A DNA stretch of 64,000 nt from Candidatus Saccharimonadota bacterium (GTDB lineage: Bacteria; Patescibacteriota; Saccharimonadia; Saccharimonadales; Saccharimonadaceae): the NCBI GenBank assembly GCA_026395405.1, contig JAPLYU010000003.1, positions 62,001-126,000 of the forward strand, given 5' to 3'. How positions within the stretch are numbered: position 1 is the stretch's first letter; each line of letters begins with the position of its first letter. Below, piece after piece: positions 10,807 through 55,534 of this stretch. The position numbers and the translations under genes are program-made. The notes under the pieces are model-generated. The model was not told the DNA's origin. It made no database searches and saw only the letters and a list, made by a program, of their open reading frames with translations.

Positions 10807-10917
10807 TCAATTTCACATCCTTCCCTTGCGGGCTAGGGTTAGCACCTTGCGTTTCACGTAGGTTGCTGGCAGGTCAAAAAGCTAGGACTCTCGCTGCACT
10901 CTTGATATTAAATTGTT
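10807..10917 (-). promoter_or_regulatory. SAM riboswitch (S-box/SAM-I clan) upstream of metK
   Basis: The minus strand contains ATATCAAGAGTG, then GAGAGTCCTAGC, CCAGCAACCT, AAGGTGCTAA and CCTAGC in the order of the S-box aptamer core, followed by a CCC-GCAA-GGG hairpin corresponding to P4. CAATTT and AAATTG can close the basal stem. The location directly upstream of metK fits feedback repression by SAM. Exact subclass (SAM-I or a SAM-I/IV variant) cannot be settled by eye. Confidence 0.82.
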
Positions 10918-17550: not shown

Positions 17551-18124
17551 TTTCGGCCTTCAAAACTTTGTTTAAATCATGAATCGCCTGCCCGGTAGAA
17601 ATAAACCAAACGCCTTGCATCCCTGCGGCTTTGGCTGCGTCTATATTCAAATAAGTGTCGTCAATCATAACGCATTCGGATAATTTAACCCCTAGTTTAT
17701 CGGCGGTAAGTTGATAAATACCGATTTCGGGTTTAGCCATGTCGACATCACTGGATAAAACTACCGCGTCAAACAGTTCTTTTTGTTCCGTCGGAGTAAA
17801 ATAACTATTGAAAAACCCTTTGCCGACGTTGCTGAGCATGGCAATTTTGTATTTGCCGGACTTTTTCAAATCCAACAACCATTTCATACTACTTTCGACC
17901 CGTACGCTTCCGCCCCAATAGCGCGATTCAATTTGTACGGGAGTTAGACCAATCAGCGACGACAACCCTTCATTAAATTGCTGGCGCGTAATCAGACCGT
18001 AATCAGCCTGATGATCTAGGTCGTCGATTTGGCGTACGAATTTTGGATAATCATTTTTTAATGCAACGCGTGCCGAGGTGACCAACACCCCAAAGCAATC
18101 AAAAATGATTGCTTTTATTGCCAT
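17543..18124 (-). CDS. HAD-superfamily hydrolase (IA group)
   Basis: 193 aa. Motif I is IFDCFGVLVTS near residue 8, with the Asp nucleophile but Phe where the general acid Asp usually lies at +2. Motif II MLSNVGKG and motif III-IV DMAKPEIGIYQ and VMIDDTYLNIDAAKAAGM are intact. This pattern resembles small sugar-phosphate or haloacid-type members. Substrate unknown. It overlaps mutM by 8 nt and the upstream gene by 10 nt. Confidence 0.8.
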   Translation of the reverse strand: MAIKAIIFDCFGVLVTSARVALKNDYPKFVRQIDDLDHQADYGLITRQQFNEGLSSLIGLTPVQIESRYWGGSVRVESSMKWLLDLKKSGKYKIAMLSNVGKGFFNSYFTPTEQKELFDAVVLSSDVDMAKPEIGIYQLTADKLGVKLSECVMIDDTYLNIDAAKAAGMQGVWFISTGQAIHDLNKVLKAENA

Positions 18125-18717
18125 ATACCACTGATTTTAGTTTGTGCATCAGGAATCTGTGAAGTGAATAGAACAGTGGTTGTGTTTAAATTACCGCCAA
18201 ATGAACCACGCGGTGCATTGCACGTAGTCGTCCAAAGCTGCTTTATCGGTTTATCTGACTGAAGAATCGTGAAGTTATACAAAAAGCCAAAAGCACAGAC
18301 TCCTGCAGTATTATTAGCAGACCCTGTAAAAATGTTTGAATTCATAAAACTTGCACGGTCCAATGCGTTAACAAATTGCGTATAGGATGGAACATTATTG
18401 CCCAGTGATTCATTGCTGGCTACAGCGTTTTCATAGCCATTATAGATTGTAAGCGTTCGATTGCTGGGAGTTATTTGTATCTGATAAGAGTGGAATTTTT
18501 CATCGGCAACGATTGGACCACGTACATTCATGCGAACAGCACGATTAGCCGAAGTTGAAAGTAGGTCGGATTGATGGGTCTCGACTTTATTAAGTGGACT
18601 GCTGCCACCAGAGAAAAATAACAGATTACCAACATAAACCAAACCAAAGATAGCAGCGCCAATGATAATAACTACCACCGCTATAGAGATAAAACGCCTC
18701 GTCCTGTAATTGTCCAT
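18115..18717 (-). CDS. Single-TM extracellular protein (unknown)
   Basis: 200 aa from ATG 18717. One hydrophobic helix (about residues 9-33) after a basic RTRRF, then a Ser/Thr/Asn-rich domain with two cysteines, consistent with an exported membrane-anchored protein. TATAAT (18728-18733) ends 10 nt before the ATG, so an in-frame start further upstream at 18792 is excluded. No family recognised. First gene of the operon with HAD, mutM and the methyltransferase-like gene. Confidence 0.62.
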   Translation of the reverse strand: MDNYRTRRFISIAVVVIIIGAAIFGLVYVGNLLFFSGGSSPLNKVETHQSDLLSTSANRAVRMNVRGPIVADEKFHSYQIQITPSNRTLTIYNGYENAVASNESLGNNVPSYTQFVNALDRASFMNSNIFTGSANNTAGVCAFGFLYNFTILQSDKPIKQLWTTTCNAPRGSFGGNLNTTTVLFTSQIPDAQTKISGIWQ

Positions 18718-18747
18718 TTCATCTGTTATTATAATATAATACCCATA

Positions 18748-18772
18748 GATATGCAAACGCCCCATTTCGGGG
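18748..18772 (-). repeat. Direct repeat of tandem zinc-ribbon cassettes, copy 1
   Basis: ATATGCAAACGCCCCATTTC plus GGGG, the start of the 3' hairpin of the first unit. The same text recurs at about 19415 and, slightly changed, at about 20073, so the two gene units are bounded by three direct repeats. Confidence 0.75.
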
Positions 18773-18805
18773 AGACAATAGTTCGTCTGCATCCCGTAAT
18801 GGGGC
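18759..18805 (-). terminator. 3' hairpin of the zinc-ribbon gene at 18816
   Basis: GCCCCATT-TCGGG pairs with CCCG-AATGGGGC, and AGAC/GTCT pair inside the loop. It lies just after the stop codon on the minus strand. Nearly the same hairpin ends the next unit at 19426-19472. Confidence 0.75.
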
Positions 18806-18815
18806 TTGGTGTTGG

Positions 18816-19325
18816 TCAGCTGGTCTCATGGATCGTGACCGTGGTCTTGACGACCTTGACGATGACTGGCATCGCACCCTCTTGTTGGAGTTCATCCACC
18901 CTATGTACGATGTGCTCTCTATCGCCCAAACGAAGGGGGCCGTATATGGAGTCAAGCCTGTAGGCAGGCATCGACTCTCCTGGGGCCGACGGAATTGTCG
19001 TCATGACTGCCAGTGACCCTGTACGAGCTTCGAACAGATGGTTCCACATGACCCTCTTGGTCGTTTCGGTGAACTCGGATTCGTAGTCATCTGGCTCGAC
19101 GAGCCCGACAACTACCTGATAGGTGCGCATACACTTGGGGCACTCCAGATTGAGCTTGCCTTCAAGTGCTCCTTCGCTGATCTGGATGAGGTGCTTCATC
19201 CCGAGTTCACCCTCGGAAGACATGGGCTTTGACCCAAACGTCTTCTCGGACCCGCACGTGCAAATGGCTGTGACGACGTAATCACTAGTCTTCTCAGCAA
19301 CTGGTGTCACTTTGAAGAACTTCAT
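18816..19325 (-). CDS. Zinc-ribbon protein of tandem GC-rich cassette, paralogue 1 (unknown)
   Basis: 169 aa from ATG 19325, which follows AAAGGGG by 8 nt. A GTG just upstream lies too close to that site. CTCGSEKTFG and LECPKCMRTYQVVV supply a CxC and a CxxC pair that could bind zinc (about residues 22-75). The C-terminal half shares phrases with the neighbour at 19482: EGALEGKLNL against EGTLEGDLDL, and GSLAVMTTIPSAP against GTLAIMTAVPIAP. Codons are strongly C/G-ending compared with HAD and mutM next door. No known family recognised. Confidence 0.7.
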   Translation of the reverse strand: MKFFKVTPVAEKTSDYVVTAICTCGSEKTFGSKPMSSEGELGMKHLIQISEGALEGKLNLECPKCMRTYQVVVGLVEPDDYESEFTETTKRVMWNHLFEARTGSLAVMTTIPSAPGESMPAYRLDSIYGPLRLGDREHIVHRVDELQQEGAMPVIVKVVKTTVTIHETS

Positions 19326-19371
19326 AAAGCTCACCCCTTTGGGTTGTTATTCACAAAGACCAATCGTAGAT

Positions 19372-19400
19372 ATTATACAATTTTTTTCAAATAATTTCAA
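19372..19400 (-). promoter_or_regulatory. Promoter of zinc-ribbon unit 1
   Basis: Minus-strand TTGAAA (19395-19400), 17 nt, TATAAT (19372-19377). The leader that follows contains GATTGGTCTTTGTG and AAAGGGGTGAG before the start codon. The same promoter and leader stand before unit 2. Confidence 0.8.
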
Positions 19401-19414
19401 TATATTTATCTCAA

Positions 19415-19438
19415 GATATGCAAACGCCCCATTTCGGG
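19415..19438 (-). repeat. Direct repeat of tandem zinc-ribbon cassettes, copy 2
   Basis: ATATGCAAACGCCCCATTTC plus GGGG, identical to copy 1. It joins the promoter end of unit 1 to the 3' hairpin of unit 2. Confidence 0.78.
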
Positions 19439-19472
19439 GAGACAATGGTTTGTCTGCATCCCGTAATGGGGC
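19426..19472 (-). terminator. 3' hairpin of the zinc-ribbon gene at 19482
   Basis: Same fold as at 18759-18805: GCCCCATT-TCGGG with CCCG-AATGGGGC. Only a few loop bases differ. Confidence 0.75.
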
Positions 19473-19481
19473 TGGTGTTGG

Positions 19482-19985
19482 TCAGTCGCTGAGGTCCAGA
19501 ACGACTTTGTGGTCGATGATTCTGACTGCGACTGGCCTTTCGCCACAGTTGAGTAGCGACTTGAGACTACTACCCATGACGGCGGCGGCGGATGAGTCTC
19601 TGTCGGGAAAAGTCATGGCGATCCGATAGAGAGCACCTGACTCCTTTGGTGCGATTGGCACGGCCGTCATAATAGCCAGCGTACCTTCCACCCCCTCGTG
19701 AGTGATGGACTCGAAGACGTACTCGGTCGTGTCAGTGACATCGTAGCCGTAGACGGCTTCGTCGTCACTGACGTGGACGTGGTAGGTCCGACCACAGTTG
19801 AGACACCCCAGGTCCAGATCCCCCTCGAGCGTGCCCTCGTTAATCTTGAGGACGTGCACCTTCAGGATGCTCTCGGCCGGCAGATCGACGTTCGGGTTGT
19901 TCATACTGCGATTCCCACACTCGCAGACCAGACTGACGAAATACTCTTCCGGACATCCGGGATTACCATGAATCTTGGATTGCAT
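19482..19985 (-). CDS. Zinc-ribbon protein of tandem GC-rich cassette, paralogue 2 (unknown)
   Basis: 167 aa. CECGNRSM and LGCLNCGRTYHVHV give a CxC plus CxxC zinc-ribbon pattern as in the paralogue. The C-terminal part contains GTLAIMTAVPIAPKESG. ATG 19985 follows AAAGGGGTGAG closely. Coding sequences of the two paralogues have diverged well beyond their flanking promoter, leader and hairpin, which are nearly identical. Codon use is C/G-ending. Function unknown; a nucleic-acid or protein adaptor role is only a guess from the ribbon. Confidence 0.7.
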   Translation of the reverse strand: MQSKIHGNPGCPEEYFVSLVCECGNRSMNNPNVDLPAESILKVHVLKINEGTLEGDLDLGCLNCGRTYHVHVSDDEAVYGYDVTDTTEYVFESITHEGVEGTLAIMTAVPIAPKESGALYRIAMTFPDRDSSAAAVMGSSLKSLLNCGERPVAVRIIDHKVVLDLSD

Positions 19986-20027
19986 AACTCACCCCTTTGG
20001 TTAGGTATCCACAAAGACCAATCACGA
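19986..20027 (-). promoter_or_regulatory. Leader of zinc-ribbon unit 2 with TTGGT/ACCAA stem before the ribosome-binding site
   Basis: Minus strand: TTGGT (20017-20021) can pair with ACCAA (19997-20001), which is directly followed by AGGGGTGAG, the Shine-Dalgarno of the gene. The same layout is found at 38861-38885. Confidence 0.6.
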
Positions 20028-20029
20028 AT

Positions 20030-20058
20030 ATTATACAATTTTATTCAAATAATTTCAA
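20030..20058 (-). promoter_or_regulatory. Promoter of zinc-ribbon unit 2
   Basis: Minus-strand TTGAAA (20053-20058), 17 nt, TATAAT (20030-20035). Matches the unit 1 promoter almost base for base. Confidence 0.8.
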
Positions 20059-20072
20059 TATATTTATCCCAA

Positions 20073-20096
20073 GACATGCAAATGCCCCATTTCGGG
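20073..20096 (-). repeat. Direct repeat of tandem zinc-ribbon cassettes, copy 3 (truncated hairpin)
   Basis: GACATGCAAATGCCCCATTT plus CGGG repeats the left arm of the 3' hairpin, but the right arm is missing. It runs into the 3' end of the DUF1269 gene at 20116. It may mark the outer end of the tandem duplication or a lost third unit. Confidence 0.7.
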
Positions 20097-20115: not shown

Positions 20116-20625
20116 TTAGACTTCTTTAGAAATTTCGTCCATTGCTTTGTTATAGTCAGCCACGTCCGAGTTGAACTCTTTTTGGTATTCCTTGATTGCT
20201 TGTTTGGTAAGTTCCCTAACTTTATCTTTGACTTTTGACTCACCCAAAACGACAATTGCTGATTCATTATTTTTAAGCAATTCGCCAATCTCTTCAAGGT
20301 CGTCCTTGGAAACATCATTCATACTGTGGCCAATCGCAGCCCCTGCACCTACGCCGACAAGTCCTGATGCCAGAATGCTTGGTGGGAATATCACGCCCAA
20401 AACAGCACCGATTACAAGCCCGCGACGCGCTCCCTTACCAGTAGAGTCAGTATGGCGGCTAATCGCTAACTTGCCTTCATTATCCTTTGATACAATTCCT
20501 GCATCATATGAGCCAACCCAACCTTCTTTATTCAGCTCTTTTACAAACTCAAAATCCTCGTCTGCAGTCGATTCATCTGAATATGCTGCGACGTATAAAA
20601 ACATGTTTTTACCTTGATCTGTCAT
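20116..20625 (-). CDS. DUF1269-like membrane protein
   Basis: 169 aa. An N-terminal alpha/beta part (FLYVAAYSDESTADEDFEFV) is followed by a glycine-rich hydrophobic hairpin (RRGLVIGAVLGVIFPPSILA and GAGAAIGHS), then a charged helical C-terminus. This arrangement is typical of DUF1269 proteins, often stress-related membrane-associated proteins of unknown activity. ATG follows AAGGAGG. The upstream leader contains further stems (see 20626-20724). Confidence 0.72.
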   Translation of the reverse strand: MTDQGKNMFLYVAAYSDESTADEDFEFVKELNKEGWVGSYDAGIVSKDNEGKLAISRHTDSTGKGARRGLVIGAVLGVIFPPSILASGLVGVGAGAAIGHSMNDVSKDDLEEIGELLKNNESAIVVLGESKVKDKVRELTKQAIKEYQKEFNSDVADYNKAMDEISKEV

Positions 20626-20784: not shown

Positions 20785-21228
20785 CTAGTGTCCGGTGCTA
20801 CCGTAACCGCCGGTGCCACGCTTCGTATCGCTGAGGTTTTCAACTTCATCCCAGTCAATATGTTCAAAACGCGCAATTACCATCTGAGCGATGCGCATAC
20901 CGGATTCAATCGTGAATGGTTCGTCACTAAGATTGACGACCAAAACGCCAAGTTCACCCCTGTAATCGCTGTCCACCGTTCCAATCCCATTCGCCATTGT
21001 GATTCCATGTTTAATACTAAGTCCACTACGCGCCCTAACCTGAGCCTCAAAACCAATCGGCAGTTCAATCGCAATCCCAGTCGGAACCATCGCCCGCCCC
21101 ATCGACGGTATTGTCATTGGCGCGTCTAGACAGGCATGCAAATCCATACCGGCCGAATGTTCGGTCTGGTATTCTGGTAAAATTGCATTTTTCCGAAGTT
21201 TTTTTATCTTCACCTGTAATTTATCCAC
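20785..21228 (-). CDS. dut: dUTP diphosphatase
   Basis: Hydrolyses dUTP to dUMP, keeping uracil out of DNA and feeding thymidylate synthesis. 147 aa with the five trimeric dUTPase motifs: [34 protein letters not shown], and [10 protein letters not shown] at the C-terminus. The GTG start overlaps the polA stop by one base (TAGTG), so translation is probably coupled to polA. Confidence 0.95.
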
Positions 21229-55450: not shown

Positions 55451-55534
55451 GGATTCCTCTTTCTTGCGGTAATATATGTATCTATGATACAGTATTTATA
55501 GAATAAGTATAAGCATTAAAATCAGGGGTGGGAA

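Follow-up and report, generated by a model that had tools for sequence, protein, structure and literature searches.

Two tandem small-gene units in a saccharibacterial chromosome as probable members of a dispersed class of expression cassettes with a conserved 3′ hairpin

The window, the 64,000-nucleotide stretch of DNA that was analysed, contains two head-to-tail gene units on its minus strand, with near-identical promoter, leader and 3′ hairpin. The two units are probably members of a dispersed class of self-contained expression cassettes for foreign genes in this bacterial family, with a conserved RNA element at the 3′ end. Such a cassette would be composed of a sigma-70-type promoter, a leader with a ribosome site, a small orphan gene rich in GC3 and in AAG, and a hairpin at the stop codon. 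Despite the tiny genomes of this group, some members retain several orphan genes of foreign appearance, packaged in a standard way. The common 3′ element is a handle by which all such genes could be found in one search and their origin asked, and a transformable member of the group could show whether the element controls expression, mobility or both. The features of the array and of the genes on its two sides are as follows.

18115..18717, minus strand: conserved neighbour gene downstream of the array, without Pfam family
18748..18806, minus strand: unit A 3′ hairpin and tail; 18748–18811 identical to G017
18816..19325, minus strand: unit A gene, 169 aa, CxC/CxxC protein, GC3 0.66
19326..19369, minus strand: unit A leader, with conserved blocks as in the unit B leader
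19372..19400, minus strand: unit A promoter, TTGAAA-17-TATAAT
19415..19473, minus strand: unit B 3′ hairpin and GUUUGCAU tail, beginning directly past the stop codon; no U-run
19482..19985, minus strand: unit B gene, 167 aa, CxC/CxxC protein, GC3 0.70
19986..20027, minus strand: unit B leader, with conserved GATTGGTCTTTGTG and AAAGGGGTGAG ribosome site
20030..20058, minus strand: unit B promoter, TTGAAA-17-TATAAT
20072..20096, minus strand: truncated third hairpin, 3′ arm and tail only
20116..20625, minus strand: DUF1269 gene, located between dut and the array; not found in the other 27 genomes of the genus

An earlier note on this DNA had described tandem units of about 670 bp, each with hairpin, gene, leader and promoter, and the repeat spacings agreed with this description. 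The direct repeat at 18747–18806 returned at 19414–19473 (60 nt, 97%, spacing 667), and that at 19330–19438 returned at 19988–20096 (109 nt, 89%, spacing 658). The flanks were thus near-identical and the proteins distant, as the note had stated: proteins A and B were 29% identical in the full alignment and 33–38% in local alignments. The third, truncated repeat that it had placed at the end of the array was also found. This copy, upstream of both units, had the 5′ flank, and its hairpin was reduced to approximately the 3′ arm and tail, a weak match of the hairpin model (E 0.1). The truncated hairpin is likely the remnant of a lost upstream unit; the DUF1269 gene, which the remnant follows, may have taken the place of this third unit. 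In the window's own genome, copies of the flanks were present at these three places only. The best start of unit A was ATG at 19325 (169 aa), preceded by a GGGGTGAG ribosome site, which corrects the first reading. At window positions 18728–18757, the tail of hairpin A gives a −35-like TTGCAT/TTTGCA to the promoter of the downstream gene.

The CxC and CxxC motifs were invariant between proteins A and B, and their alignment indicates that genes A and B are paralogues. The earlier note had called the products zinc-ribbon proteins. No match exceeded the curated cut-off of any zinc-ribbon model; CxC/CxxC suggests that the unit proteins may bind zinc. No family match was found in Pfam, PHROGs, NCBIfam, PADLOC or PDB sequences, and DUF5803 (E 0.012), ADK lid (E 0.007–0.016) and CXXC_Zn-b_euk (E 0.08) fell under the cut-offs and were set aside. 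The fold models had pLDDT values of 56 and 40, too poor for use, and Foldseek gave no match at E 0.001. A search of phages, plasmids, viral contigs and genome contigs gave homologues in G017 alone. The protein family was present in 2 of 99 relatives and 2 of 392 genomes of the order; in a phylum sample of 379 genomes it was present in the window's own genome only. An overlapping antisense gene was also considered. The in-register antisense frame was open over long stretches in B and G017 and broken in A, and the candidate was rejected because silent sites between B and G017 were not more constrained than in the neighbours.

The composition of the units differed from that of the window. GC3 was 0.66 in A, 0.70 in B and 0.69 in the G017 gene, against a window mean of 0.41 (sd 0.065; 48 ORFs including A and B), and the next highest value in the window was 0.48. 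High expression does not explain these values, since EF-Tu of the window's genome had a GC3 of 0.36 and used AAA for 91% of lysines, compared with 12% in the units; expression-driven codon bias was therefore ruled out. The composition points to a foreign origin of the unit genes.

G017 is a sister species, with PolA 93.5% identical. It has one unit, located between polA and the same downstream gene as in the window. Of 28 genomes in the genus, 24 yielded this downstream gene; besides G000 and G017, this left 22 loci, one of them a contig end with an unreadable upstream side. Units were present in 0 of the 21 readable loci, where the gene directly upstream of the neighbour was polA (13), dut (7) or another ORF (1), and the remaining 26 genomes of the genus gave no unit. 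The unit number among relatives, a check that had been proposed, thus varied, and relatives that all carry two units with equal rates in flanks and coding parts, the case named as refuting the earlier reading, did not arise, as the sister species has one unit. In G017, the 5′ flank and gene were B-like and the hairpin was A-like, a combination that loss of unit A through recombination between the hairpin repeats would leave. The slot downstream of polA was variable across the genus (the dut slot of the window is 20785–21228), and G017 has no dut here.

The flanks were constrained between species, and the proteins changed fast. Comparison of flank and coding divergence, also proposed earlier, gave very different rates. 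Among 45 window genes matched to G017, the two units ranked last in protein identity (35 and 39%); the next lowest value was 61%, and the median of the other 43 was 84%. Silent divergence was measured over aligned codons for the same amino acid. It was 27/63 (0.43) between B and G017 and 0.39–0.46 in the neighbours, values that fit B and the G017 gene being orthologues of ordinary age. Between A and B and between A and G017 it was 0.54–0.55, with full saturation at 0.58. These values weakly suggest that A split off before the species diverged (p 0.045 and 0.057 from few codons; p 0.10 for B–G against the rest).

Hairpin A and G017 had 64 identical bases, which is one of seven exact matches of at least 45 nt between the window and 66 kb of G017. 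Only two of 13 comparable intergenic regions had a perfect 60-nt stretch. One of these holds a SAM riboswitch (window 10812–10911, minus strand, over the Rfam gathering score), and the riboswitch and its surroundings gave two of the seven longest exact matches to G017. In the 5′ flank, 57 of the best 60 bases were identical between B and G017. The hairpin core of A was closer to that of G017 than to that of B; over the whole trimmed element including the variable edges, the values were 0.90 for A–B and 0.88 for A–G017. Another 64 bases identical to G017 occur at window positions 55469–55532, in a gap between divergent genes, and match no RNA family.

Three causes for the likeness of the flanks had been listed in the earlier note: strong selection, homogenisation within the genome, and assembly from modules. 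Gene conversion between the units would keep the flanks of A and B alike, and their likeness of 89–97% agrees with this. However, conservation between species was equally high (64/64 for hairpin A and G017; 57/60 for the 5′ flank of B and G017), and the A hairpin core was nearer to that of the other species. Conservation between species excludes homogenisation within one genome as its cause, and gene conversion is regarded as very improbable. Strong selection on the flanks fits best, because the 64 identical bases of hairpin A are shared between species. Judged from these comparisons, purifying selection appears to act on the flanks, with no homogenisation inside the genome. For the class, assembly from modules is likely, as in G042 described below, but it was not supported for the A/B pair, whose genes are paralogues.

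The search for further hairpins was performed with covariance models. The first model (R1), built from the three hairpins of A, B and G017, was run over 199 genomes and gave one more hairpin in another genus (G054; per-genome E 3.4e-4, with a chance expectation of about 0.07 in 199 genomes). An unrelated ORF of the membrane type (171 aa) precedes the G054 hairpin, which starts at its stop codon; the genes on either side were read as clpP and trigger factor. The second model (R2), from four hairpins, was run over 392 genomes. It gave matches with per-genome E of 5e-7 to 3e-5 in G042 (twice, 507 bases apart), G054 (a second hairpin), G318, G280 and G391. The third model (R3), from ten hairpins, added G054_3, G054_4 and G054_5 and raised G400 and G379 (22 bits with R2). 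With R3, unit A was matched at 18741–18823 (91.8 bits) and unit B at 19408–19489 (87.2 bits). These were the only two strong matches in 460,228 bases of the window's genome; G054 had five such hairpins in 400,835 bases.

Matches near 20 bits were mostly noise, as shown by those dropped near that score. G238 (R1, 22.4 bits) had broken stems; G216, G343, G038 and G204 (R2) were ordinary or unstructured on reading; and in G292 (R3, 22.4 bits) no ORF of at least 50 aa ended at the hairpin. For the weakest hairpin matches, acceptance made use of whether an ORF was present. The L116 match (17.8 bits, beside a 99-aa ORF with GC3 0.51) was noted outside the count of 15. In viral contigs, the exact hairpin pattern had 0 matches, and four and nine matches of looser patterns turned out to be chance once they were searched with the model and read. 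In 8 further genomes of the order, AT-rich matches to the promoter covered just 28–49 nt of the promoter region and were also taken as chance.

The cassette architecture recurred with unrelated genes of biased composition. Each of the 15 accepted hairpins follows an ORF of 65–171 aa and begins no more than about 30 bases from its stop codon. The GC3 of the cargo gene exceeded that of local large ORFs in 15/15 by 0.07 to 0.33 (Wilcoxon p 3e-5), where A, B and G017 are related, so that not all 15 genes are independent; the excess in G054_3 was just 0.07. Lysine codons of the cargo were AAG in 67 of 79. Neither GC3 nor AAG preference was used in the model searches. Outside A, B and G017 the cargo proteins were unrelated, except for a 32-residue stretch between B and G318 (E 0.04), and the ten that were scanned had no family. 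Promoters with at least 9 of 12 matches occurred upstream of 10 of 12 cassettes scanned. Two more tandem pairs were found. In G042, the pair has ORFs of 65 and 102 aa, and its hairpin cores agree at 47 of 48 positions (75% over the whole trimmed element). The pair in G054 has ORFs of 114 and 78 aa, each after a promoter-like site read by eye, and its hairpins are dissimilar, 50% alike. The cassette reading thus reached beyond the locus, since the same 3′ hairpin ends unrelated small genes, twice more in tandem.

The hairpin consists of an outer stem, an inner stem, a four-base bulge opposite C, a third stem and the tail TT(T/C)GC, and mostly ends in GUUUGC(A/U)UAU. The tail was present in 13 of 15 hairpins (absent from G391 and G054_3). 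The GYAGR motif of the bulge, complementary to the tail, was present in 10 of 15 (absent from G391, G400, G379, G054_5 and G054_3). Several weaker members lacked the full architecture, and some were simple stems. The stems showed compensatory changes. In the ten-sequence alignment, 14 of 18 pairs had changed on both sides and 92.5% of cells were paired, which 0/500 shuffles matched; this covariation count is flattered, because alignment A5 was made to fit the structure and because A, B and G017 are closely related. The folding z values against shuffles were −2.5 for hairpin A and −4.0 for hairpin B. The window hairpin has an alternative fold with the tail paired (−21.9 vs −26.5 kcal/mol), and in G054_1, G054_2 and G054_4 the best predicted fold has the tail paired. 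These tail-paired folds may be a by-product of the GC-rich arms, and no switch is claimed from them. Rfam gave no relevant match in this stretch of the window or in 7 related loci. The GC stem with an immediate U-run of an intrinsic terminator was not seen: the terminator scan did not return the hairpin on the minus strand, where the stem leads into the tail GUUUGCAU.

The array could also be one of ordinary tandem paralogues. An acquired gene would have been duplicated with its promoter and terminator, the flanks would be kept by selection on expression, and the other hairpins would be a terminator type of the lineage, placed after late-acquired genes by coincidence. In favour are the paralogy of A and B, with flanks that could go back to a single duplication, and the one copy in the sister species; in addition, hairpins that close a gene are commonly terminators, and the simple stems of some weaker members agree with this explanation. 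It is nevertheless considered rather unlikely, in view of the missing U-run and the negative scan on the gene strand. Moreover, a terminator has no need of the conservation seen in bulge, loop and tail, no other strong match exists in 460 kb of the window's genome, and 15/15 hairpins follow small GC3-rich ORFs.

Another explanation is gene capture directed by the hairpin, which would be a recombination end read as folded DNA by an unseen enzyme, with unrelated genes strung into arrays. The near-identical hairpin cores after unrelated genes in G042, the tandem pair in G054, the fusion of the hairpin to the stop codon and the truncated hairpin at the array edge in the window are consistent with it. 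Integron cassettes have the same small gene, imperfect hairpin at the stop codon, head-to-tail arrays and unrelated cargo. The attC core boxes at the hairpin base are GTTRRRY and RYYYAAC; however, they were found in 0/15 and 1/15 hairpins, respectively, and every unit carries a promoter of its own, which is not typical of integron cassettes. The hairpins of the G054 pair are just 50% alike, and no recombinase was identified and no integrase seen, short of a genome-wide search. Hairpin-directed capture is thus unlikely. In a broader form, this would be a new gene-capture system of ultrasmall bacteria, in which a stop-codon-fused bulged hairpin marks the constant end of mobile single-gene cassettes, carrying foreign orphans from a GC-rich pool under their own promoters in arrays beside housekeeping genes, and serves as a DNA recombination end or a two-state message switch. 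This proposal is quite unlikely.

The preferred reading, a dispersed class of expression cassettes, was compared with two other known systems. Phage morons are single genes with their own promoter, a terminator-like end and a base composition unlike their surroundings. The cassettes resemble them in these three points, but the loci read had no prophage context, and the hairpin is conserved across genera and has no U-run. Promoter early stem-loops (PeSL) of T4-like phages are repeated spacers of stem-loop and promoter between small unrelated genes and are held to mediate gene shuffling (PMC4503421, PMC3950731). The composite stem-loop and promoter repeated between genes is present here too. Three points differ from PeSL as described there: the location is a bacterial chromosome, next to housekeeping genes; the bulged architecture of the hairpin is conserved; and unrelated units do not have a promoter in common. 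For shuffling of the PeSL type, the observation is unrelated cargo with alike hairpins in one genome, G042. Searches of Rfam, Pfam, PHROGs, NCBIfam and viral contigs gave nothing that matches this gene-packaging pattern. A literature search that left most subscription journals outside found nothing relevant on such cassettes in Saccharibacteria/Patescibacteria.

In the expression cassettes as proposed, the hairpin would act in RNA as the 3′ end of the message or as a control element. Tandem duplication would have built the array up to three units or more, and recombination between repeats would later have caused loss. The zinc-ribbon-like proteins may act in fast-changing conflict or host interaction, since their identity was the lowest of the genes compared. 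The search for a donor in phages, plasmids and viral contigs found none. The cassettes would enter as DNA beside housekeeping genes through natural transformation and homologous recombination. DNA uptake through the com system and integration by homology are described for Saccharibacteria (PMC10633639).

The neighbours of the cassettes, read from the sequences, were often housekeeping genes: polA, recG, fusA, tuf, tig/clpP and dnaX. Beside the G391 cassette, at L074 2098–2499 (minus strand), there is a second orphan ORF with GC3 0.90 and, at its end, an ordinary terminator with a T-run. At L115 6600–7429, the G054_5 hairpin comes after two GC-rich orphans that apparently form one message, and a dnaX-like gene lies directly downstream.
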